Source of the DNA: Candidatus Blautia excrementipullorum
GTDB lineage: Bacteria > Bacillota > Clostridia > Lachnospirales > Lachnospiraceae
Reading direction: 5' to 3'
Assembly (NCBI GenBank): GCA_019118645.1
Contig: DWYN01000110.1
Location: forward strand, 1-64,000
Length of the DNA stretch: 64,000 nucleotides
Shown here: positions 51,027 through 64,000 of the stretch, in pieces
How the letters are laid out: each line of letters begins with the position of its first letter
Position numbering within the stretch: the stretch's first letter is position 1
Translations under genes and position numbers: made by a program
Notes under the pieces: generated by a model
Seen by the model: the letters and a program-made list of their open reading frames with translations, nothing else
Databases searched by the model: none
Told to the model about the DNA's origin: nothing

Positions 51027-52295
51027 TCAGGGGAGAAGACGGTATATTTCCGGAAATGGTTCCAGACTTCTTTTAAGAATTCCGGTTACCTGGGCTATGA
51101 GGATGCCATAGTTGGTTATTGGAACATGCTGGTCCTGACAGCAGGCGATCCGGTATTTCATTTCCCTTTCGTTGAGCATGCAGCCTCCGCAGTGTACCAC
51201 CAGTTTAAATTCACTGACATCGTCAGGGAATTCTGTTCCGGAGGTAAAGACAAATTCCGGCTGCTTTCCTGTATACTGGCGGATCCAGTTGGGTATCTTG
51301 AAGGTACCGATATCATCGCACTGACGGTGATGGGTGCATCCTTCCGCAATCAGAATCTTGTCGCCGTCCTGGATGTGCTGAAGAGCTGCGGCTCCTTCTG
51401 CCGCTGTTTTCAGATCGCCTTTATAACGGGCAAACAGAATGGAGAAAGAAGTCAGAGGAATATCCTTCGGCGTATCCCGGGACACCCGGGCAAAAGCCTG
51501 GCTGTCTGTAACAACGAGACGGGGACGGATGCCTTTGCTTAAAAGATTCGATAAAGCGTCCTTCAGTTCCGTATCCCGGACTGCCAGAGAAAGCCCTCCG
51601 TGCTCCAGAATATCCCGGATCGTCTGCTGCTGAGGAAGAATCAGTCTTCCTTTGGGCGCAGCCTTATCAATGGGAACCACCAGTATGATAAGATCAAGAG
51701 GGGACATCAGATCGCCGATGAGAGGATATTGGTGGGTATCCTCCGGCTTCAGCGAAGCGATCAGTTTCTTCAGTTCGTAAATATTGGTTTTTTCTGCTGC
51801 ACTGACACAGATGGTATGAGAAGCTGATCCTTTGCCGTCTCCCTGTTTTGAGAGACAGTCCGGTGTCTGGCCCGCAATGGCATCCATCTGTTCTTTTGAA
51901 ATCAAATCACATTTATTATAAACCACGACATAGGGAATTCCTTTTGCCTGGAATTTTTTAATCAAAGCTTCTTCCGGCTCGCCTTTTCCTGTGGTACTGT
52001 CCACGATAAGAACGGCAATATCCGTTTTGTTCAGTACCTGATAGCTTTTTTTTACTCTCAGAGCGCCTAGCTCGCCTTCATCGTCAATGCCGGGAGTATC
52101 GATGACCATTACCGGCCCCAGAGGAAGCAGTTCCATTGTTTTGTACACAGGATCTGTAGTTGTGCCTTTTACATCTGAGACAATTGCCAGATTTTGTCCT
52201 GTTACGGCATTGATAATACTGGACTTACCTGCGTTGCGCCGGCCGAAAAAACTGATATGTACCCGCTCGGAAGCGGGAGTCTGATTCATTCCCAT
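51027..52295 (-). CDS. hydF: [FeFe]-hydrogenase H-cluster maturation GTPase HydF
   Basis: FGRRNAGKSSIINAVTGQ, DTPGIDDEGELG; C-terminal VHCGGCMLNEREMKYRI cluster motif. Confidence 0.94.
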   Translation of the reverse strand: MGMNQTPASERVHISFFGRRNAGKSSIINAVTGQNLAIVSDVKGTTTDPVYKTMELLPLGPVMVIDTPGIDDEGELGALRVKKSYQVLNKTDIAVLIVDSTTGKGEPEEALIKKFQAKGIPYVVVYNKCDLISKEQMDAIAGQTPDCLSKQGDGKGSASHTICVSAAEKTNIYELKKLIASLKPEDTHQYPLIGDLMSPLDLIILVVPIDKAAPKGRLILPQQQTIRDILEHGGLSLAVRDTELKDALSNLLSKGIRPRLVVTDSQAFARVSRDTPKDIPLTSFSILFARYKGDLKTAAEGAAALQHIQDGDKILIAEGCTHHRQCDDIGTFKIPNWIRQYTGKQPEFVFTSGTEFPDDVSEFKLVVHCGGCMLNEREMKYRIACCQDQHVPITNYGILIAQVTGILKRSLEPFPEIYRLLP

Positions 52296-52418
52296 ATATT
52301 TCACTCCTGACTGCAGCATAAACACGAAAGCTGTTTTGCTGATATAGATATTCTGAAAACAGTAAGTAACTATTTATATTATAAAAAAATATTCGGTGTT
52401 CTTCAAGTGGATAAAGCT

Positions 52419-52470: not shown

Positions 52471-53589
52471 GTGGAGGATCCTATGGAAGAGAAAGCAGAA
52501 TTTGACAGAATAGAAGAGCTTCTGGAAAGCAAAATGGAATACTGGAGTTTTTCCGGGCTGCTGCAGAAAGTTTATAATGGGACGGAACCTGTTCAGAAAA
52601 GACTTTCCGATAAACTTTCAGAATATGACGGAGAAAAAAACAGGACGGCAGTGGAACGGAAAGTAAGGAACTGGCTTCACGACAGGAATATCCCTCAGAA
52701 AAGAGAAGAGCTTTTTAAGATCTGTTTCGCACTGGATCTGGATGAGGAGAAAACCAATTCCGTGCTGGGCGTTACGGCAGAAAACGGAATCCATTACCGC
52801 AATCCCAGAGAAGTTATTTATGCCTACTGCCTGCGCAGCGGCAGAGATTATCCAGAGGCGCAGAGGCTTGAGGAAAAACTCTGGAAAAAGAAATACGGGG
52901 ATCTTCCGGACCGGCGAAATATGACGGAATCGAAAAAGGAGGAGCTGCCGATGACGTTTTCTGTCAGGAATGATTTCAAACGTGTGCAGACCGAAAAAGA
53001 ACTGGAGGCATTTCTGGAGAAACGCAGAGAGAGCTTTGGGTATTTCCGCAATACCGCGTACAGAAAATTTGCCAAAATGCTTTCCCGTCTTTCTGTTCCG
53101 GGAGAATCCTGGCAGTATGGAATGCCAAGGGAACAGGATTACAGCGTGGATCAGATTGTAAATTACTATCTGCGCATGGGAGTTCCCTACGATAAAAAAT
53201 CTGAGAAGTACAGCAGAGCGGCGAAGCAGATTAAAAAGAAATGGCCGTCGCCTAAAAGCGTCAGGGAAATTCTTTCCGGAAGGCAGGATGTGGACAGGAA
53301 ATCCTTAATCCTTCTGTATCTTGTAACAGAAACAATAAGCGGTGAAAAAACGGAATCAAAAGACCAGGTGCGGGAGCATATAAACAGGATGAATCTGATG
53401 ATGACGGAATCCGGGATGCCTGTTCTGAATCCCCACAGTCCGTTTGATTATCTGATTCTGCAGGCTGTGAATGTCACAGACGACAATGAATATCCGGAAT
53501 TCAGGCTGGAGAGGATGCTTCACCGCATTTTTCATAAAAAGACGAACGTCGCTTATATCGCAGAGACAGAACGAAGAGACCCGGTGTGA
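52471..53589 (+). CDS. Hypothetical protein preceding Ser/Thr kinase genes; possible HTH-like regulator
   Basis: 372 aa; NWLHDRNIPQKREELFKICFALDLDEEKTNSVLG segment is HTH-like; no firm family seen. Confidence 0.6.
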   Translation: MEDPMEEKAEFDRIEELLESKMEYWSFSGLLQKVYNGTEPVQKRLSDKLSEYDGEKNRTAVERKVRNWLHDRNIPQKREELFKICFALDLDEEKTNSVLGVTAENGIHYRNPREVIYAYCLRSGRDYPEAQRLEEKLWKKKYGDLPDRRNMTESKKEELPMTFSVRNDFKRVQTEKELEAFLEKRRESFGYFRNTAYRKFAKMLSRLSVPGESWQYGMPREQDYSVDQIVNYYLRMGVPYDKKSEKYSRAAKQIKKKWPSPKSVREILSGRQDVDRKSLILLYLVTETISGEKTESKDQVREHINRMNLMMTESGMPVLNPHSPFDYLILQAVNVTDDNEYPEFRLERMLHRIFHKKTNVAYIAETERRDPV

Positions 53590-53714
53590 GGAAAAATTTC
53601 CCGTACCGGGATTTTTTTAGATGCGGAAAAAAGTTGCCGTACAAAAAGCAGGGGCCGGGTATAATAAAACTATTATTCTTTTGCCGGAAAAACGGTAAGC
53701 AGGAGGAAACGCAT

Positions 53715-55607
53715 ATGGATGAGAGAAAATATCTGCCTGAGAATTACGCTCTGAAGAGCCGGAACAGGATTTATTATATTGACCATTATATCGGCGGAGG
53801 TTCCAATTCCGTTGTTTATCAGGCGTGGTACAGAGATACACTGATGCCTGAGCATATACATACGGTTCTGGTAAAAGAACTTTATCCTTTTGACGGATAC
53901 CATGAGATAACCAGGGACGAGACTATGGCTCTGGCAGTACCGGAAGGGTCAAGGCAGTTTTTTGAAGAACATAAAGCCAGTTTCCTTCTGGGAAACCAGG
54001 CGCATCTGATGCTTTCTTCGGAAGCGAGGGGACATATTGCGGAAAATCTTGATTCCTTCGAGATGAATCATACGCTTTATACGGTGCTGACGGCGCGCGG
54101 AGGAGATGTGTTGTCCAGAATGAAGGAACTGAGTCATTTTCCGACGCTGACAGACGCGGCGGACTGCTTTCGGAGTTTATTGCAGGCTCTGAGACCTTTT
54201 CACAATCACAGACTGCTTCATCTGGATATCAGCCCGGACAATATATTTCTGCTTTCTCCGGACGAAGAAGGGGGCTTTCCCACAGAGGTTCTTCTGTTGG
54301 ATTTCAACAGCGTATATTCCATGGACAAAAAACTGCTGAACGAGTGTCAGTATTATCTGGGAAAGAGTCCTTATATGGCGCCGGAAGTGATCCTTCATCA
54401 GGAGGAAGCTCTGGGCCCCTGGACGGATATCTATTCGGCCTGTGCAGTCTTTTATGAGATCCTTTCAGGGGAAAAACTGCCGGAAGACAGGGAGCTTCTG
54501 GATACGGAGGAGCTTCTCTCCCCATATTCCGGGATCCTGCTCCATGAGAAGGAAAGCGCGGCAAAAAGGGTGAACAGTATCCTGAAGAAAGGTCTGGAGG
54601 TTCTTCCTGCTTTGAGATATCAGAATGTGCCGGAAATCCTGGAGGATCTTCAGGAACTGCAGGATATTCTCCGGGGAGCCTTAAGGATACGGATGAGCGA
54701 GGAAGGAGGCCGGCAGCCGGAAGAAGAGAGACGGCCTCCCCGTCCCGCCAGATGGAAAAGAACGGCTGCGGCGGTTGTATTCATGGGAATCGGAGCGGCC
54801 ATCGCAGTTCCGGCGACTATGCAGTATCTGAATCAGCCCTTGGAGAATACCGAGCTGGATCTGACACATTTCCCTCTGGAAACAGATGATTCCGTTGTTC
54901 TGACAGAGCATGACGTCAGGTATCCCCTGAAAGACGGAATCCTGACTTTACAGGTCAAAGCAGAATCTGCGGTGCGGGCCATGCTGAAAGACTATCGTCA
55001 CGAAAGGGACGAGAGTGAAATATTTGAGACATACTCTATTTTTACGTTCTACAGTGGGAAAGGGGATAAAAGAGGATGGCAGTACGCGGGACTGACATAT
55101 GACTTTTTTGATACGGAAGATAACCGGATGCATATGGTGCTGCCTTTTCAGGATACCAACGATTTTGATCTGGATTATATCGGCGTTGTTTTTCAGAATT
55201 TTAACTATACGGAAACCGCAGCGATCCTGGATATCGAAACCTGCCGCCTCACAGACGGCGATGGGAACAGTTATGAGATTACAGATCTGATCGGAAGCCA
55301 TCTTCTGTTTTTTGACGAGGAACATTTCCAGCAGAACCTGATCACCATGCAGAGTCAGGATTTTGTGACTACTTTTGAGGATATAAAGGGAGGAGAGCTG
55401 GTGGTGGACGCGGCGGTCTGCTTTCTGGAGCCTGTTATGGATGTAAAATGGGAAAGCGAGGATCCGAAGATCGCCTCCGTGGATAACCGGGGACGGATTA
55501 AAGGAGTGAGCCAGGGATGGACAAGGCTCACCGGAACGTTTACAGATAAGAATACAGGAGAGACAAGAACGACACAGATGATGGTGAATGTTACGGCGCA
55601 GCCGTGA
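53715..55607 (+). CDS. Membrane-anchored Ser/Thr protein kinase-like protein with Big_2-like C-terminal domain
   Basis: Gly loop IGGGSNSVVY, VLVKE Lys, HLDISPDNIFL catalytic loop, LLDFNSV (DFN for DFG), SPYMAPE; TM AAAVVFMGIGAAIAVPA; VKWESEDPKIASVDNRGRIKGVSQGWT. Confidence 0.85.
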   Translation: MDERKYLPENYALKSRNRIYYIDHYIGGGSNSVVYQAWYRDTLMPEHIHTVLVKELYPFDGYHEITRDETMALAVPEGSRQFFEEHKASFLLGNQAHLMLSSEARGHIAENLDSFEMNHTLYTVLTARGGDVLSRMKELSHFPTLTDAADCFRSLLQALRPFHNHRLLHLDISPDNIFLLSPDEEGGFPTEVLLLDFNSVYSMDKKLLNECQYYLGKSPYMAPEVILHQEEALGPWTDIYSACAVFYEILSGEKLPEDRELLDTEELLSPYSGILLHEKESAAKRVNSILKKGLEVLPALRYQNVPEILEDLQELQDILRGALRIRMSEEGGRQPEEERRPPRPARWKRTAAAVVFMGIGAAIAVPATMQYLNQPLENTELDLTHFPLETDDSVVLTEHDVRYPLKDGILTLQVKAESAVRAMLKDYRHERDESEIFETYSIFTFYSGKGDKRGWQYAGLTYDFFDTEDNRMHMVLPFQDTNDFDLDYIGVVFQNFNYTETAAILDIETCRLTDGDGNSYEITDLIGSHLLFFDEEHFQQNLITMQSQDFVTTFEDIKGGELVVDAAVCFLEPVMDVKWESEDPKIASVDNRGRIKGVSQGWTRLTGTFTDKNTGETRTTQMMVNVTAQP

Positions 55608-55618
55608 GTTTTGCCGCA

Positions 55619-55656
55619 GATACAGCCGGAACAGGGAATGCTGTTCCGGCTGTATC
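55619..55656 (+). terminator. Perfect 16-bp stem inverted repeat after kinase 1, likely terminator
   Basis: GATACAGCCGGAACAG GGAATG CTGTTCCGGCTGTATC TGTTTC. Confidence 0.65.
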
Positions 55657-55749
55657 TGTTTCACGGAAGATTCTTCGTATATATGAAGAACAGAAGTTGT
55701 CTGACTTATAAATAAACGGAAAAAAGATGCCGGATGTTAAAAATAAGAA

Positions 55750-55824: not shown

Positions 55825-57861
55825 ATGAGCGAAAAGAGATGTATTAATTGCATGAAAATAATTCCTCCGGGAACGGAAAAATGTCCTTATTGCGGATTCG
55901 AAGAGGAGTATTATCAGGCGGAGGTATATCAGCTTCCCATCGGTTCCGTACTGGAGGAACGCTATCAGATCGGCAGGGTGATCGGCGAGGGCGGCTTTGG
56001 CGTTACCTATATCGGATGGGATAATAAATTTAACCAGACGGTCGCCGTAAAAGAATTTTACATAAAAGGGATCGTGAGTCGCTTTAACACAGTTTCCTAT
56101 TCGCTTACCTTACATAAAAAGAGCGACGAGGAGCAGTATCAGAAATCGCTGTTTAAGGTGGAGCAGGAGGCGAAGATTCTGAAACAGTTTGCCTCCTGCC
56201 CGGGAATCGTCCGGGTGGAGGATTTTTTCCGGGCGAATAATACGGTATATATTGTAATGGAATATGTGGAAGGCCTGAGTCTCCGGGAATACTGCAAACA
56301 GAACAGAGGGAGACTGGACGGCGGCGCCTGTCTGGAAATGTTCCGTTCTCTTATCGAGGCTTTGTATGAGGTGCACAAGCGAAAGATCATCCACCGGGAT
56401 ATCAGTCCGGATAATATCATGGTGCAGAAGGATGGAACACTGAAACTGCTGGATTTCGGCTCCGCCCGTTCCACGGACTACTCTACAACGTCTGTTACCG
56501 TAAAATATGGATATGCTCCGCTGGAACAGTATCACGCGGATGAAAGGAATCAGGGCCCGTGGATAGACGTTTACGCTCTTTGCGCCAGCATATACTACTG
56601 TCTCACCGGAAACCAGATGCAGGATTCCCAGCTCCGCCGTCCGGAAGAAGATATCTGGACAGACGCCGGAGAGTTTAAGCTTTCAAGAACAGAGAGGGAG
56701 ACTCTGCGTAAGGGACTGCAGTTGGATTACCGGGAACGCCTCCAGTCTATGGACGAATTATATTTCGGCCTGTATGGAAAACATCTGGATAAAAGCCAGA
56801 CAGAACCCCGCAGGGAAAATCAGCGGAAGGGAGTTTCTGAAAAGAAAAAAATATCTCACGGGAAAGAAAAGATTTCCCCGAAGAATAAAATGAAAAAGAA
56901 GCCGGAAAAATCCGGTGGGAAATGGGTAAAGCGGATTGTTCCGGCAGCTCTGGTTCTTATCCTTTCAGGAACAGCCCTGTACCTGGTTCTCCACAGAAAT
57001 GATACGGAAGGCAGCGCCGTGAAAAATACAGAAGAGACGGAAGAACTGACTACATGGGCGCGCATGGATGAGACGGAAGAAACAGGAGATACCGACGGAA
57101 CGGAAGAGACAGAAGAGACAGGGGATACCGGCGGAACGGAAGAGACAGAAGGGACAGAGAATTCCGGAGTAATGGAAGAGACGAAAGGCGCGGAAGAACC
57201 GCCGGAAGAAGGGACTGACGGAGAGCCGGAGGCAGAGCAGATATTTGACTCTCAGGAGATAATACGAATAAGCCGGTTGAATGATAAACAATACAAAGAG
57301 ACACAGATAGCGTCCAGTAAACAAAATGATGCGGAAACAGACAGTATGTCCTGGACAGACGAAGAAGGCAACGTTTATACTGCCGAAAAGCAAAAAAACG
57401 GAAGGCCGGACGGTCAGGGAACCTGCAGTTATGCCAATGGAGATTATTTTGTAGGTCAATGGGTGAATGGTGAAAAATATGACGGCACGTTTCAAATGGC
57501 AGACGGCACCATATATGAGGGCGCCTGGGGAGAGAACGGTTATGCCGAGAGCGGTACGATCTACTATACCGATGGAAGTGTTTATCAAGGAAAATGTCTG
57601 TATACAGCGTCCGGTGAGTTAAAGCCGGATATGTCCGGCTTATGGTATTTCTCCCGGAATGACTCCCAGAGAAGAGAGAGCTTTCAAGGAGAAGATTTTC
57701 ATCTTTGGGGGCATCTGGGGTTAGAAAATGAGATTGCCGGTACCCTGTATTACACAGACGGGACTACAGAAACCGGGAAATGGAAGCTTGCGGAGCCGGG
57801 AAATCAGGAGAATCTGTCTGTGACTGAGCTTATGAGCGGTCCATGGACGAAAATATCTTAG
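55825..57861 (+). CDS. Ser/Thr protein kinase with N-terminal zinc ribbon, TM segment and C-terminal MORN repeats
   Basis: CINCMKIIPPGTEKCPYCGF; GEGGFGVTYIGWD, AVKEF, IHRDISPDNIMV, LLDFGSAR; TM IVPAALVLILSGTALYLVL; MORN-like YANGDYFVGQWVNGEKYDGTFQMADGTIYEGAW. Confidence 0.92.
   Translation: MSEKRCINCMKIIPPGTEKCPYCGFEEEYYQAEVYQLPIGSVLEERYQIGRVIGEGGFGVTYIGWDNKFNQTVAVKEFYIKGIVSRFNTVSYSLTLHKKSDEEQYQKSLFKVEQEAKILKQFASCPGIVRVEDFFRANNTVYIVMEYVEGLSLREYCKQNRGRLDGGACLEMFRSLIEALYEVHKRKIIHRDISPDNIMVQKDGTLKLLDFGSARSTDYSTTSVTVKYGYAPLEQYHADERNQGPWIDVYALCASIYYCLTGNQMQDSQLRRPEEDIWTDAGEFKLSRTERETLRKGLQLDYRERLQSMDELYFGLYGKHLDKSQTEPRRENQRKGVSEKKKISHGKEKISPKNKMKKKPEKSGGKWVKRIVPAALVLILSGTALYLVLHRNDTEGSAVKNTEETEELTTWARMDETEETGDTDGTEETEETGDTGGTEETEGTENSGVMEETKGAEEPPEEGTDGEPEAEQIFDSQEIIRISRLNDKQYKETQIASSKQNDAETDSMSWTDEEGNVYTAEKQKNGRPDGQGTCSYANGDYFVGQWVNGEKYDGTFQMADGTIYEGAWGENGYAESGTIYYTDGSVYQGKCLYTASGELKPDMSGLWYFSRNDSQRRESFQGEDFHLWGHLGLENEIAGTLYYTDGTTETGKWKLAEPGNQENLSVTELMSGPWTKIS
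57082..57152 (+). repeat. Two 36-bp period in-frame tandem copies in kinase 2 linker
   Basis: ACAGGAGATACCGACGGAACGGAAGAGACAGAAGA / ACAGGGGATACCGGCGGAACGGAAGAGACAGAAGG, encoding TGDTxGTEETE units. Confidence 0.85.
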
Positions 57862-57919
57862 GATTTCTGAATGAGGATCCATATACGGAAGAAATACAGA
57901 CACAAGGAGATCATACATA

Positions 57920-59395
57920 ATGAAAGCAGACAAAACACACTATCAGGATCTGAGAGAAAGGGCCGCGGAACGGTTCCGCCAGATTGAACGGCTCCAGGAA
58001 CAGGGACTGATCTGTAAACAAGGGGATTTTGTACCGTCCGTACACTATCCTCCCATTACCCGCTACCCGGATGTGACGGAGGATTTTATCCTGAAGGATT
58101 ATACCATGCCGGAGGACGGAATGATGGATATCTACGTCCACTTTCCTTTCTGCGCCCAGAGATGTCTTTTCTGCCATTATCCCGGCAAGGTCGGTCCCCA
58201 GGAGGAAGAAAAGGAGAAATATGTAACTTATCTGGAACGGGAAATGGATCTGTATCTGGAAAAACTGGGAGAACAGAAGCTGAAGCCCCGTTCCATACTC
58301 ATAGGAGGGGGAACGCCCACGTATCTTTCGCCAAAGCTTCTGGAACGTTTTTTGGGTTATTTTGCCAGACGGGTGGATTTTTCGAGATGCCGCCAGTTTA
58401 ATTATGATCTTGATCCCATGTCCCTGATCGGAGACGAGGGAAAAGAAAAAATGGAGATCATGAAAGCTTACGGCGTGGACAGACTTACCATAGGGTTCCA
58501 GTCCCTGGACGATCAGGTGCTTCATATTATGAATCGCGGCCACGGCGCCGCCCAGGCAGTGGAGTCTCTTTACGCCGCGTCAGAAATGGGATTTGATACA
58601 AATATAGAATTTATTTACGGGCATCCGGGCCAGACTTTTGAAAACTGGGTGGACGTTGTGGAGGAGGCGGTAAAGCTTCCGGCAGATGAGATCCAGCTTT
58701 ACCGTCTGAAGGTGCAGGCTTATGGGGATATGCAGGGAGCTGTGATCCAGAACAGAACGAAAGCGGGGAAGACTCCTATTCCGGATTTTCAGGAAACCAT
58801 GATGATGAAACAGGCCGCGCTGGACATTCTGACAGAAAACGGCTATCACGAAAATCTCCGCAGAGTTTTTTCCCGGCAGAGCAGGATATATTCCCACTAT
58901 GCCTACAACCAGTGCTGTAATCTTTACGATCAGATTGGTTTCGGGATCACGGCGTTCAGCAGTTTCCGCGACCGTTTCGCGCTGAACACGCAGCATTTTA
59001 AAGAGTATTATGAAAAGCTGGACCATGGTCTGCTGCCGGTAAACCGGGGATATGTGCGGGACAGGGAGCAGCAGGCGAGGTGGGCGCTGATCCTTCCGCT
59101 GAAAAACCGTGACGTGCGGAAAAAAGATTATAAAAAGATCACGGGCCTGGAACTGGATCAGGTATTTACCGAAAAGCAAAAATATCTTACAGAAGCGGGA
59201 CTTCTGGAGGATACGGAGAAAAAGCTGTCTCTGACGGAGCTTGGAAAATTTGTAGCAGATGAGGTGGCGGAACAGTTTAACAGTGTGGAATTCCTTCCGT
59301 TTCCGGAGAAGGATTATGCAGACGGGGTTCTGAATCCTTACAGAAACAACAGAAGAGAAGATGTGCTGGGAGGTGAGGCGGTTGAAACAGATTGA
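57920..59395 (+). CDS. HemN/HemW-like radical SAM protein
   Basis: CxxxCxxC motif HFPFCAQRCLFCHYPG; IGGGTPTYLS; TIGFQSLDDQVLHIMNRGH; HemN-like C-terminal region. Confidence 0.88.
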   Translation: MKADKTHYQDLRERAAERFRQIERLQEQGLICKQGDFVPSVHYPPITRYPDVTEDFILKDYTMPEDGMMDIYVHFPFCAQRCLFCHYPGKVGPQEEEKEKYVTYLEREMDLYLEKLGEQKLKPRSILIGGGTPTYLSPKLLERFLGYFARRVDFSRCRQFNYDLDPMSLIGDEGKEKMEIMKAYGVDRLTIGFQSLDDQVLHIMNRGHGAAQAVESLYAASEMGFDTNIEFIYGHPGQTFENWVDVVEEAVKLPADEIQLYRLKVQAYGDMQGAVIQNRTKAGKTPIPDFQETMMMKQAALDILTENGYHENLRRVFSRQSRIYSHYAYNQCCNLYDQIGFGITAFSSFRDRFALNTQHFKEYYEKLDHGLLPVNRGYVRDREQQARWALILPLKNRDVRKKDYKKITGLELDQVFTEKQKYLTEAGLLEDTEKKLSLTELGKFVADEVAEQFNSVEFLPFPEKDYADGVLNPYRNNRREDVLGGEAVETD

Positions 59396-61454
59396 ACTGG
59401 ATGTGAGTACAAAGCGTTCCCTGATCCATCTGGGAAGCCTGGACTCTTTTGATATTACTGAGGGAGGGAAAAAGGCGGGCAGATGTATTTTAGAATATCT
59501 GGAGGAGGGAAATCCGGAGCGGCTGAAAAGAGCTGTGCAGATCTATGAGGAGCTGATTCCAAACGAGAATTTCGGCGGGGAATATACAGCTCTGGAATGG
59601 CTGTGCAAGCTCTGGCTGGCGCCGGAGGAAGAACAGAAACGGATGCTTTCTTATCCGCCGGTCAGAGGATTTTACGAGCTTCTTGCGGAAAATGATTTTT
59701 TTCATCTGAAATGGTATATCCGCCGAAAGTATCATTTCGTAGAGATCCACCGGAAAGATCTTGAGGCGAAGGCCCAGCTCCGTTTTCTGGAGGATTTTAT
59801 TCTTTTCGGAAATCCGGACCGGGAACGCTGGGAAAAGGTGAGGGAAAATATCGCGCGTCTGCCTCTTCGCAGAGGAATGCGTATCGCCGACGTGGGAAGC
59901 GGGCCGGGATATTATTCCTTCAAATTCGCGGAGCTTATCGGGGACGATGGAATGGTCTATGCCATTGAGACAAATCCCAGGCATCTGGATTACCTCAGAA
60001 GCTATATCGCAAAAAACAGGATTCCCAATGTAACTGCGGTGACAAGCAGTTTCCAGGGCATCGGCCTTTCGCCGGATGTCAGAGTGGATATGGTGTTTAT
60101 CTGTTCTCTTTATCACAATGTTTACGCTGCGTTTACAGACGAGGAGAGGGATTCCTTTGTACAGAGCATACGGAGAGCTCTCCGTCCCGGAGGAACGCTG
60201 GCGGTGGTGGACAATGATCTGGTAGAGGACAGCGAGCTGCCGTATCATGGCCCCTATATTGCAAGAGAACTTCTTTTGAGCCAGCTTTATTACTATGGAT
60301 TTGAACTGAAGAAACAATATCAGTTTACTCCTCAGAGATATGTATTGATCCTGGAAAAAAAAGAGGAACTGCCGGCGCAGGATCCTCTGAATCACGCTTC
60401 TTTTCAGGATGAGAAAAAGGAGAAGATCAAAGTGACCAGTTCTTCCTCTCTGGTCCGGTACCGGATCATCGGTACATCCACTTCCGGTTTTACCTGGAAT
60501 GGGAAACGTCTTGCTCTGAAACTCTCCAGAGGACTGGAAGAAAACAATGCCCACCTGATCAGGGAGACGGCTGAAGAGTACGGGATCCTTATGAGAAAAG
60601 AGCGGATCGGAGACGAATATACGGCTCTTTTGTGGTTCTGCCAGATGTTTCTTATGAAAGACGAAGAAAGGCGGAAGATCCTGGAAGATCCGATGGTCAG
60701 AGATTACTGGCATTTTTTTGCGGATGAGGATTACTCTGTGATGAAAGCGTATCTGCGGAACAAATACAATTTCCGGGAGCCTCTGAGCGAAGAGGAGACG
60801 CCGGGAGTTCTGGAAACAGAGGAGCCGGATATTTCTTTCGGGGTTCTGAATGAGTGGAGTGAATATCTGACTTTTAACAATCCCAACAGGTATCTGTGGG
60901 AGGATACCGGCCGTATGCTGGAATATCTGGATATCCGGGAAGGAGAGACTGTGGCGGATATCGGATGCGGAAGCGGATATTTTTCCTGGCAGTTCTCCAA
61001 AGCGGTGGGAAAAAACGGAACGGTGTTCGCTACGGAGATCAATCCGGAGGCGCTGTCCTGGGTGGAGAAGCTGAACCGGGAGTGCGAGACCAGGATCGTT
61101 CCCCGGACTGGAGCTCTCAATGATGTATGTCTGGAAGAAAATTCTGTGGATACCATGTTCCTCTGTTCTATGTATCACGCGACGTATATTGCGTCGATTG
61201 AGTTTGTAAGGGAAGAATTTATCCGCAGCATGCAAAAAAGCATCCGTCCCGGCGGCCGTCTGTATGTTGTGGATAATGATATTACACCAAGAGGAGAACC
61301 GGCATATTTCGGGCCGGGCATCTGCCGGGAACTGGTAATCGCCCAGCTTGAGAGATATGGCTTTGTACTGGAGGATGTCCGGCAGTTTGTTCCCCAGAGA
61401 TATGTACTCAGATTCCGTAATAAAAAACAGGAGGGAACAGGCCTATGTATCTGA
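59382..61454 (+). CDS. Tandem (duplicated) SAM-dependent methyltransferase
   Basis: Two motif I copies: IADVGSGPGYYSFKF and VADIGCGSGYFSWQF; conserved VVDND and PQRYVL in both halves; likely TTG start after RBS gggaggtg, annotated ORF begins 59361. Confidence 0.85.
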   Translation: MKQIELDVSTKRSLIHLGSLDSFDITEGGKKAGRCILEYLEEGNPERLKRAVQIYEELIPNENFGGEYTALEWLCKLWLAPEEEQKRMLSYPPVRGFYELLAENDFFHLKWYIRRKYHFVEIHRKDLEAKAQLRFLEDFILFGNPDRERWEKVRENIARLPLRRGMRIADVGSGPGYYSFKFAELIGDDGMVYAIETNPRHLDYLRSYIAKNRIPNVTAVTSSFQGIGLSPDVRVDMVFICSLYHNVYAAFTDEERDSFVQSIRRALRPGGTLAVVDNDLVEDSELPYHGPYIARELLLSQLYYYGFELKKQYQFTPQRYVLILEKKEELPAQDPLNHASFQDEKKEKIKVTSSSSLVRYRIIGTSTSGFTWNGKRLALKLSRGLEENNAHLIRETAEEYGILMRKERIGDEYTALLWFCQMFLMKDEERRKILEDPMVRDYWHFFADEDYSVMKAYLRNKYNFREPLSEEETPGVLETEEPDISFGVLNEWSEYLTFNNPNRYLWEDTGRMLEYLDIREGETVADIGCGSGYFSWQFSKAVGKNGTVFATEINPEALSWVEKLNRECETRIVPRTGALNDVCLEENSVDTMFLCSMYHATYIASIEFVREEFIRSMQKSIRPGGRLYVVDNDITPRGEPAYFGPGICRELVIAQLERYGFVLEDVRQFVPQRYVLRFRNKKQEGTGLCI

Positions 61455-63721
61455 CGGTTTTTACGGGAAACGATCCTCCCTTTTCAGTGAATCTGGAAGA
61501 ATATAAAAAAAGAAAGATCACCTTCGGCCGTTCGTCGGGGAACGACCTTGTTCTCCGGTCTCAGATCGTATCTTCTTCTCATGGATTTTTTACGAAAGAA
61601 GGCGAGAGGTGGAAAATCGCCGACAATCACAGTACCAACGGACTCTATGTGAATGAAGAACCGGTTACCGAGAGACTTCTGTCAGACGGACTGAAAATCT
61701 ACATAGGGGATGAAAAACACAGCGAGAGAGTGGTGTTTCTCTGCACCGTGGCCAATAACAGCATAGGGTATCGGCATTTCAGCCTTGAGGGCCGGGAGAA
61801 GGTCCTGATCGGCCGGCAGGAGGACTGCGATATCCGGCTTGGATATGTTGGTGTGTCGCGGGTTCACGGGAGTGTTATACGAAAAAAGGAAGGCTTCTGT
61901 CTCAGCGCGGCAGGAAGCGGCCAGATCCGGTATAACGGAAGACCGCTGGGAAGAACAGAAAAAATTTTGTCGCCCATGGACCGGTTTATGATAGGGGATA
62001 CGCAGTTCCTTTACCGCGAAGGCGAGCTGATCTATTATCGCAGTCAGGACGGTCTGGGTATGGAGATCAGCGGACTGACAAAGACTGTTCCGGCAGGGCG
62101 TGGGAAAAAGACGATTCTCAGTCAGGTCAGCCTGCAGATACAGCCGGGAGAATTTACCGCTATTGTAGGAGGTTCCGGCGCGGGAAAATCTACTCTTTTG
62201 AAATGCATCAGCGGATGTACGGAATACACGGAAGGCTCTGTGCTGATCCAGGGCGAGGATATCCGATCCGGTTATGAAAGTATCCGCCGTCTGATGGGAT
62301 ATGTTCCCCAGCAGGATATCGTATATGATGATCTGACTCTTGAAAAGATGCTGTACTATTCAGCCGGACTGAGAATGCCCCGGGACGCTTCCCGGCAGGA
62401 AATACGGGAAAGGATAAGAGAAGTGATCCATAAGGTGGAACTGGACGGGCATGAAAAGACTATGATCCGGAAGCTCAGCGGAGGGCAGAAAAAAAGAGCA
62501 AGCATAGCGGTGGAGCTTCTGTCTGATCCGGGAATCTTTTTTCTGGACGAACCCACTTCAGGTTTGGATCCGGGAACAGAGCAGAATCTGATGAGGACTC
62601 TGAAAAAAATGACAGAGACGGGAAAAACCATCGTGCTGGTCACCCATACACCGCTGAACCTCTATTTATGCGACAAGATTATTTTTATGGGTCCGGGAGG
62701 AAGGCTTTGTTTCTGCGGAAGTCCCGGGGAGGCCGTATCTTTTTTCCAGGCGGCCAGGCTGGTGGATATCTATAATCTGGTCCAAGAAGCGCCGGAAGTA
62801 TGGGAAGCAAAATACCGGCGGACGCAGTATACTCTGCCGGTCCCGGCAAAGGGCAGAACGCAGAAAGAGAAAGAAAAAGCTTCCGTGTTCCGGCAGCTTT
62901 GGCTTCTGGCGGCGCGCTGTCTGGAGATCACCGTAAACGACAGAAAACGATTCCTTCTGCAGCTTTTGATGGCTCCGGGTCTGGGTATTCTTCTCTACCT
63001 TGCCTTCAGCGGTTCTCTGGAACCGTTCGTCCTTGCCCGGGATACAGAAACTTTTTCCATAGCCCTGGCCTGCTGCTGCTTCTGGATCGGTCTGTTTCAG
63101 GCGATACAGGAAATTTGTAAGGAACGTACGATCATGGAGAGGGAGAGGATGGCGGGAATGAAAATGCCGGCGTATTTTTTCTCAAAGGCGATTGTGCTTG
63201 GAGGATTTCTGATTTTGCAGTGTTTCCTTCTCCTGGGATGTGTGTGGATGTTGATCGGCAGTCCAAAACAGGGGGCTCTCCTGGGAAACGCCGCGTTTCT
63301 GGAATATCTGCTGCTCACCTGTCTTGCGGCGTTTTCCGCTGCCGCCATGGGTCTGCTCCTTTCGGCGGCCGTCAGCACTCCGGAACAGGCTGCGGCTGCC
63401 GCGCCCCTTCTTCTGATACCGCAGATTCTTTTCTCGGAGATTATCTGTACACTGTCGGGAGCGGCAAAATATCTGTCTTATATAGTGAGCTGTAAATGGA
63501 CGTGTCTGGGATACTGCGCTTCGGCAGGCATCAACGATCTGCCCAGTAAGCTGGTGCCGCAGGTGGAATATACCTTTTATAACAGCAGATACAGTGCTTT
63601 TAAGCTGCCTGTGCTGGGGGACGTAAATCCGGCGGCGGTAAGTATAGCCGCGCTGATTCTGCTGACTGCGCTTTTGTCCGCCGCCACACTGCTGGCGCTG
63701 AGAAAACGCAGAGAACTGTAA
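61445..63721 (+). CDS. FHA domain-containing ABC transporter, ATP-binding plus ABC-2 permease fusion
   Basis: Two FHA-like domains (GRSSGNDLVL...NHSTNGLYVNE and GRQEDCDIRL...SRVHGSV), Walker A GGSGAGKSTLLK, LSGGQKKRASIAVELL, C-terminal multi-TM ABC-2 region. Confidence 0.93.
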   Translation: MYLTVFTGNDPPFSVNLEEYKKRKITFGRSSGNDLVLRSQIVSSSHGFFTKEGERWKIADNHSTNGLYVNEEPVTERLLSDGLKIYIGDEKHSERVVFLCTVANNSIGYRHFSLEGREKVLIGRQEDCDIRLGYVGVSRVHGSVIRKKEGFCLSAAGSGQIRYNGRPLGRTEKILSPMDRFMIGDTQFLYREGELIYYRSQDGLGMEISGLTKTVPAGRGKKTILSQVSLQIQPGEFTAIVGGSGAGKSTLLKCISGCTEYTEGSVLIQGEDIRSGYESIRRLMGYVPQQDIVYDDLTLEKMLYYSAGLRMPRDASRQEIRERIREVIHKVELDGHEKTMIRKLSGGQKKRASIAVELLSDPGIFFLDEPTSGLDPGTEQNLMRTLKKMTETGKTIVLVTHTPLNLYLCDKIIFMGPGGRLCFCGSPGEAVSFFQAARLVDIYNLVQEAPEVWEAKYRRTQYTLPVPAKGRTQKEKEKASVFRQLWLLAARCLEITVNDRKRFLLQLLMAPGLGILLYLAFSGSLEPFVLARDTETFSIALACCCFWIGLFQAIQEICKERTIMERERMAGMKMPAYFFSKAIVLGGFLILQCFLLLGCVWMLIGSPKQGALLGNAAFLEYLLLTCLAAFSAAAMGLLLSAAVSTPEQAAAAAPLLLIPQILFSEIICTLSGAAKYLSYIVSCKWTCLGYCASAGINDLPSKLVPQVEYTFYNSRYSAFKLPVLGDVNPAAVSIAALILLTALLSAATLLALRKRREL

Positions 63722-63753
63722 ACAATACCGGAAAAGACAAGAAAGGGAAGATT

Positions 63754-64000
63754 ATGAAGAGAAAAATGATCACAGCGGCGCTGACAGCCTCGGTAATTAT
63801 GTTTGGCTGCGGCTTTGGATCGGGGAATACCTATGGAGATTATGAAGAAGCGTATATGGCTCTGATGGCCCCCGGATCGTTGAATACGGACATTACCCTT
63901 GTACTGAATATGGAAGAAGAGACTGTCCGTGCGGAAGGAAATATGAAAATGGATCAGAGCGGAGCCATGTACTTTGAACTGGAAATGGGAGACAAAAAAG
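63754..64000 (+). CDS. Putative lipoprotein, truncated by window end
   Basis: MKRKMITAALTASVIMFGCGFGSGN lipobox; RBS aaaggga; open to end of window. Confidence 0.75.
   Translation, partial: MKRKMITAALTASVIMFGCGFGSGNTYGDYEEAYMALMAPGSLNTDITLVLNMEEETVRAEGNMKMDQSGAMYFELEMGDKK

Follow-up and report, generated by a model that had tools for sequence, protein, structure and literature searches.

We describe an operon at the end of a 64,000-nucleotide stretch of Candidatus Blautia excrementipullorum DNA (contig DWYN01000110.1; the whole stretch analyzed is called the window), whose five genes encode a Ser/Thr kinase, a HemN-like radical S-adenosylmethionine (SAM) enzyme, a tandem methyltransferase, an ABC transporter carrying two FHA domains (FHA-ABC), and a lipoprotein. 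The window is positions 1-64000 of a 68,817-base contig (C56) in a source assembly of 3.43 Mb and 184 contigs. The operon is a real, conserved gene set and apparently an undescribed one: the initial annotation, a reading of the DNA letters by themselves, knew of no named system of this composition, and we found no description of the gene composition in the open literature (most subscription journals lay outside our coverage). We propose, with about even confidence, that it is a kinase-gated biosynthesis and export operon that would make a one-carbon (C1)-modified small molecule or lipid.

The operon extends on the plus strand from 55825 to past the window end at 64000 (Table 1), and the five same-strand, tightly spaced genes of the initial annotation were recovered as such, with intergenic gaps of 58, 0, 0, and 32 bp. 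The two overlapping boundaries that it had pointed out were likewise confirmed. The methyltransferase gene starts at 59361 or at an alternative TTG at 59382, and from either start it overlaps the end of the radical SAM gene (stop at 59395); the start of the FHA-ABC gene at 61445 overlaps the methyltransferase end at 61454 by 10 bp. Past the window end, the remainder of the lipoprotein gene is followed, still on the plus strand of the contig, by genes for a PP2C phosphatase, a Gate-domain membrane protein, and an eight-MORN protein.

Table 1. Features of the operon and of the region immediately upstream
Feature	Position	Strand	Support
Ser/Thr kinase with zinc ribbon, one transmembrane segment, and weakly MORN-like extracytoplasmic part, 678 aa	55825-57861	+	Pkinase 5e-35
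HemN-like radical SAM enzyme, new subfamily, 491 aa	57920-59395	+	Radical_SAM 3.9e-25, HemN_C 6e-8
Tandem methyltransferase, 697 aa	59361-61454	+	two units, each helical domain + class I SAM methyltransferase
FHA-FHA-ABC-ABC2 half transporter, Rv1747-like layout, 758 aa	61445-63721	+	domain matches
Lipoprotein, 276 aa, truncated by window end	63754-64584 of contig (L006:3755-4585)	+	lipobox cysteine
Hairpin, perfect 18-bp, terminator-like, weak T tail	55617-55658	+	dG -37 kcal/mol, z -7.7
Second kinase-like gene, transmembrane segment + Big_2 domain, upstream of operon	53586-55607	+	Pkinase 4.4e-18

Among 299 genomes drawn across the family, the tandem methyltransferase is present in two, the source genome and G079, and profiles of the radical SAM enzyme (E below 1e-60) and of the lipoprotein (E below 1e-6) detected the same two genomes. 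A wider draw from the class added one methyltransferase-carrying genome in 391 (G354), the phylum draw added none in 399, and a search of the family and order of G354 (three genomes) yielded nothing further; some 1,100 genomes were covered for the tandem methyltransferase in all. The source genome is counted in each draw by construction, and the independent evidence is that of the other carriers. The radical SAM gene is present in all five genomes that have the tandem methyltransferase (the source genome, G079, G354, and the genomes of loci L015 and L016), and a genome of the same genus (G263) has neither gene. We conclude that, throughout the clostridial genomes found, the predicted radical SAM enzyme and tandem methyltransferase form an obligate pair.

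At G079, L015, and L016/L029, the gene order is FHA-ABC, lipoprotein, tandem methyltransferase, an extra gene, and radical SAM, followed by kinase and/or PP2C genes. The L016 contig stops inside the methyltransferase gene, and its end sequence recurs at the start of L029, which continues with the extra open reading frame (ORF), the radical SAM gene, and a PP2C gene. The G354 order, MORN protein, radical SAM, and tandem methyltransferase, is that of the window. A kinase gene is present in the operon of the window, at G079, and at L015, and the lipoprotein gene adjoins the FHA-ABC gene in all four loci having both. Because order is shuffled and content is constant, function is favored over recent shared descent of one block. 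Co-occurrence and shuffled synteny ruled out a chance neighborhood, and the grouping of the predicted methyltransferase, radical SAM, and lipoprotein genes is not chance. A search of gene neighborhoods was the test that the initial annotation had set against itself, and the genes proved to be conserved together, in shuffled order and in other genera, at G079, L015, and L016/L029. The extra gene between the methyltransferase and radical SAM genes encodes a DASS-family symporter in L015 and an uncharacterized protein of 224-241 amino acids in G079 and L029. These latter proteins (L014:2374-3045 in G079, 224 amino acids; L029:282-1007, 241 amino acids) had no Pfam match and by eye are possibly degenerate PP2C.

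The transporter platform is commoner in the family than the enzyme set. Full-length FHA-ABC proteins are encoded in 10 of 150 family genomes, and in the eight other FHA-ABC genomes the neighboring genes encode FHA proteins, in most cases together with kinases or PP2C, with no lipoprotein, radical SAM, or tandem methyltransferase gene nearby. The source genome itself has a second locus (L007:5029-9650, contig C33) with a kinase and a two-FHA ABC transporter and without radical SAM, methyltransferase, or lipoprotein genes. The transporters linked to the tandem methyltransferase form one clade, apart from the other FHA-ABC copies (branch support 100/99). The clostridial pair is tied to this one FHA-ABC clade, one lipoprotein family, a predicted transmembrane zinc-ribbon kinase, and usually a PP2C phosphatase. 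At a separate dense locus (L049:2883-14974, G040:C16), genes for a kinase, PP2C, and an FHA-ABC lie among those for several FHA-domain proteins.

The radical SAM enzyme had been called HemN/HemW-like, which holds for the HemN superfamily and fails for HemN or HemW identity; it is a predicted member of the superfamily that lies outside every named member. Its scores are under every curated HemN-family cut-off, including those of HemN (TIGR00538; 165.6 bits, cut-off 325), HemW (TIGR00539; 147.6 bits, cut-off 205), HutW/ChuW (HutW 128 bits, cut-off 400), and HemZ. The best NCBIfam model, that of the STM4012 family (NF006067), gave 182 bits, less than half of its 380-bit cut-off, and a literature search found no paper on this family. 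The CxxxCxxC cluster motif is at C78/C82/C85. The fourth cluster cysteine of HemN is absent, where CHKLCYFCGC of HemN compares with CAQRCLFCHY here and the C71 position is Tyr87. The heme-binding motif of HemW, HNxxYW, is absent as well, and the C-terminal region has HYAYNQCCNLYDQ instead, which is invariant in all five clostridial orthologues (55-71% identity). Identity as HemN, HemW, HutW, or HemZ was rejected on these scores and missing motifs. The same data bear on a role in heme or tetrapyrrole metabolism, in which a HemN, HemW, or HutW relative would act and the transporter would move a porphyrin. HemN-family matches of 128-166 bits and the HemN_C domain speak for this role, which we nevertheless regard as very improbable, given that all scores fall below the curated cut-offs, that the HemN cysteine and HNxxYW are missing, and that no other heme gene was seen beside any of the loci. 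Of the products that the initial annotation had suggested, the tetrapyrrole falls by the cut-offs, the cysteine, and HNxxYW, and a modified small molecule or lipid that is made and exported is the best fit, helped by the Bradyrhizobium locus described below.

Class C features are present in the enzyme, namely a HemN-type radical SAM domain, CxxxCxxC, and a HemN_C domain. Its relatives in the PDB are HemN (1olt) and NocN (9p2u), the alignment to NocN covering only profile positions 73-272. As in the class C methylases (NosN/NocN, TbtI, ChuW/HutW, MenK), the HemN fold, HemN_C, and the SAM-II stacking tyrosine are shared, this tyrosine of HemN and NocN being retained as invariant Y72 and NocN Arg153 as R188 (PMC12871812). 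Unlike these methylases, the enzyme has the invariant HYAYNQCCNLYDQ as its own and scores below every curated cut-off.

The duplicated methyltransferase of the initial annotation was substantiated. The halves are 33% identical to one another (E 3e-66). In each, a helical N-domain is joined to a class I methyltransferase that has its SAM motif, and both retain DxGxGxG and the ribose-binding acid. A CS[LM]YH motif is conserved in both halves, and its equivalence to His138 of C10Q is only putative. The predicted model supports a class I methyltransferase only, its domain arrangement being unreliable (TM-score 0.2-0.3). The best fold match is to the tandem phosphoethanolamine N-methyltransferases 5wp4/5wp5 (about 12% identity, TM-score 0.2-0.3), which also have two class I methyltransferase domains per chain; unlike in 5wp4/5wp5, the units here share an N-terminal helical domain and the duplication is seen only in clostridial members. 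A duplication within the clostridial line apparently gave rise to the tandem form, because a single-unit methyltransferase from Bradyrhizobium groups with the N-terminal halves.

In a tblastn search of plasmids, the methyltransferase family was found only in four Bradyrhizobium plasmids (peanut) and as one distant methyltransferase. These four plasmids are near copies and represent one event. Their methyltransferase is a single unit with 43% identity, and all four also carry a radical SAM orthologue (54% identity) with a close variant of HYAYNQCCNLYDQ, where the other listed plasmid HemN-like proteins are near 25%. On NZ_CP094524, a conjugative plasmid from a symbiont of peanut, the single-unit methyltransferase gene (L059:14842-16113) encodes a signal peptide and is followed by tandem DMT, ABC ATPase, FtsX permease, and HlyD genes, and no annotated kinase or FHA gene was found in the examined stretch. 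Because Bradyrhizobium has the pair with a different ABC exporter and lacks an annotated kinase or FHA gene there, we take the radical SAM/methyltransferase pair to be the core and kinase/FHA control to be a clostridial attachment. The exporter swap suggests that the product would be exported whatever the control, and the rare, shuffled occurrence of the system across phyla points to an accessory metabolite exported by gut and plant-associated bacteria. A broader reading, which we advance tentatively and at somewhat less than even confidence, is that a cross-phylum module of a HemN-like enzyme with a single or tandem methyltransferase, and sometimes a HydE-family enzyme, makes an exported metabolite whose release in gut clostridia would be under direct kinase/FHA/phosphatase control.

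The HydE-family partner was encountered in two forms. In G354:C181 (L022:1303-4029), the radical SAM gene is fused in frame to a HydE-family domain via a long low-complexity linker, this domain scoring 231 bits, slightly under the HydE cut-off. In Bradyrhizobium (L059:24771-27502), a HydE-family radical SAM gene is directly upstream of the HemN-like gene, beside glycosyltransferases. The two HydE-like sequences branch together, separately from true HydE (100/99), in a tree of seven sequences and few taxa. They raise the possibility that the pathway uses two radical SAM enzymes, with a HydE-family protein as the third core enzyme, borrowed in Lachnospiraceae-like members from the housekeeping hydrogenase maturase. 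This would be a compatible addition to kinase-gated biosynthesis and export, and we consider it unlikely: there are only these two instances, the pair in the window and those in G079 and L015 have no HydE-like gene next to them, and the closest match in the source genome is a HydE-like frame adjoining a HydG-like frame (C14:40814-42662).

On the signaling side, the catalytic motifs of the operon kinase are intact (GEGGFG for GxGxxG, HRDISPDN for HRD, and LLDFG for DFG), and its transmembrane segment is at residues 371-389. The kinase half of the kinase-MORN call in the initial annotation stands, and the MORN half is weak, the match to PF02493 (E 0.007) being below cut-off. The N-terminal C-x2-C...C-x2-C ribbon is also present in the G079 and L015 kinases. 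The transporter has its first FHA domain at 25-88, then a second FHA domain, ABC_tran at 225-372, and ABC2_membrane at 483-680; FHA1 retains GR/SxxH/NG, and FHA2 is without the NG turn. No Pfam or NCBIfam family matched the lipoprotein. The precedent that had been invoked, PknF/Rv1747 of M. tuberculosis, agrees in layout, with a Ser/Thr kinase gene beside an exporter that has two FHA domains, a nucleotide-binding domain, and a permease in one chain (FHA-FHA-ABC-ABC2), and PknF phosphorylates Rv1747 with positive regulation (PMC3908365). Unlike the Rv1747 operon, which has two genes, the set here adds the radical SAM enzyme, tandem methyltransferase, lipoprotein, and PP2C, and the window kinase has its N-terminal zinc ribbon. 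By analogy, a PknF-like switch with a PP2C eraser would be the simplest reading.

In CC-1065 biosynthesis, the HemN-like enzyme C10P transfers a methylene derived from SAM onto an sp2 carbon, and the resulting adduct is resolved by the methyltransferase C10Q (PMC6050322). The window pair is similar in that a HemN-like radical SAM enzyme has a dedicated, obligate methyltransferase partner. Unlike in C10P/C10Q, the methyltransferase has two units in tandem and an additional helical domain; the operon is also not surrounded by natural-product assembly genes, and cyclopropanation is unsupported. A C1-adding pair is proposed because of the analogy to C10P/C10Q and the class C enzymes. The radical SAM enzyme, if class C-like, would draw on two SAM molecules, one for the radical and one for the C1 group, and would attach that one-carbon unit to an unreactive carbon of a small or amphipathic molecule. 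The tandem methyltransferase would complete or follow this step, as C10Q does after C10P, or methylate the product once or twice. The FHA-ABC would then move the amphipathic product outward, and the lipoprotein may receive or sense it. The kinase would phosphorylate either the transporter or a partner, transport would be turned on by FHA docking, and the PP2C phosphatase would reset the switch.

Several points weigh against this mechanism. We infer its product, every catalytic step, the phosphorylation, and the export from sequence alone. The NocN SAM-II contact Asp196 is Glu230 here, and Tyr96 and Ser225 are replaced, so that the second SAM site may differ from that of NocN. The G354 contig has the radical SAM and methyltransferase genes without FHA-ABC or lipoprotein, but the contig ends there and these genes may lie elsewhere in that genome. 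The two Bradyrhizobium genes belong to separate units, with about 10 kb between the methyltransferase and the radical SAM gene, and the signal peptide of the methyltransferase is not easily squared with a cytosolic partner. The predicted model of the lipoprotein (pLDDT 54) gave no fold match and is of a quality at which fold assignment is impossible.

Envelope-lipid tailoring would assign the same genes differently: the pair would modify a membrane lipid, the FHA-ABC would be a flippase, and the lipoprotein would be a carrier or sensor. Loss of Rv1747 lowers phosphatidylinositol mannosides (PIMs), and transport of these glycolipids by Rv1747 has been suggested (PMC5549992). An ABC2 half transporter with a dedicated lipoprotein in four of four loci and the presence of 3ccf (cyclopropane-fatty-acyl-phospholipid synthase) among weak methyltransferase relatives are in keeping with this role. 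We judge it rather unlikely, although the best placed of the alternatives, since a lipid-biosynthesis gene was seen in none of the loci, the lipoprotein model supplied no fold, and the Bradyrhizobium pair adjoins a MacB-type exporter with HlyD instead. A pathway for a ribosomally synthesized and post-translationally modified peptide (RiPP), in which the radical SAM enzyme and methyltransferase would modify a ribosomal precursor for ABC export, has its precedent in HemN-like enzymes of the NosN/NocN type, which work in RiPP pathways (PMC12871812). It is highly doubtful here: the operon holds no small ORF, its gaps leave no room for a precursor, the other loci are also tightly spaced, and the transporter is without a peptidase domain.

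Kinase-gated biosynthesis and export, if true, would mean that a Ser/Thr kinase gates the release of a dedicated secondary product, with the genes for making that product lying next to the transporter gene. The cargo of an Rv1747-type exporter is suggested and unproven (PMC5549992), and in the operon candidate cargo-making enzymes are encoded next to such a transporter, an arrangement that would open cargo, phosphorylation, and transport to joint testing. The operon thus offers a compact, experimentally tractable gene set for a radical SAM subfamily, linked to a signaling-controlled exporter.

PADLOC matches raised an anti-phage reading, in which the methyltransferase (mad2, 1.8e-44), the kinase (mad6, 9.3e-52), and the ATPase (mad3, 8.4e-33) would form a MADS-like defense system. 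Controls matched too, an E. coli UbiE fragment to mad2 (8e-23), LivG to mad3 (1e-25), and an unrelated kinase to mad6 (1e-53); the tandem methyltransferase occurs in no phage records, and no defense-gene context was seen. This reading, to which we give almost no credence, was dropped because the matches are generic and shared by housekeeping controls. Phage cargo was also rejected, the tandem methyltransferase being absent from the phage records searched, with one 24% match in viral contigs. Independently of this operon, the PADLOC mad2, mad3, and mad6 models over-call defense genes (controls E 1e-23 to 1e-53).

Upstream of the operon, the second kinase-like gene has HLD and DFN where HRD and DFG are expected, and 217 bp that include the 18-bp hairpin separate it from the operon. 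Because of these degenerate motifs and this separation, we regard it as a neighbor rather than a part of the operon, and probably as a separate unit. A possible helix-turn-helix-type regulator (weak MUG113 match) overlaps this degenerate kinase with its transmembrane segment and Big_2 domain in 52471-55607, and a related protein adjoins an FHA-ABC in L048. An Rfam scan found no element linked to the operon; its sole match, at 84 bits, was an FMN riboswitch (1312-1488) that lies upstream of a gene (1536-2222) for a membrane protein resembling a riboflavin transporter. An ORF on the minus strand (51027-52325), about 3.5 kb from the operon, resembles by eye the hydrogenase maturation GTPase HydF.

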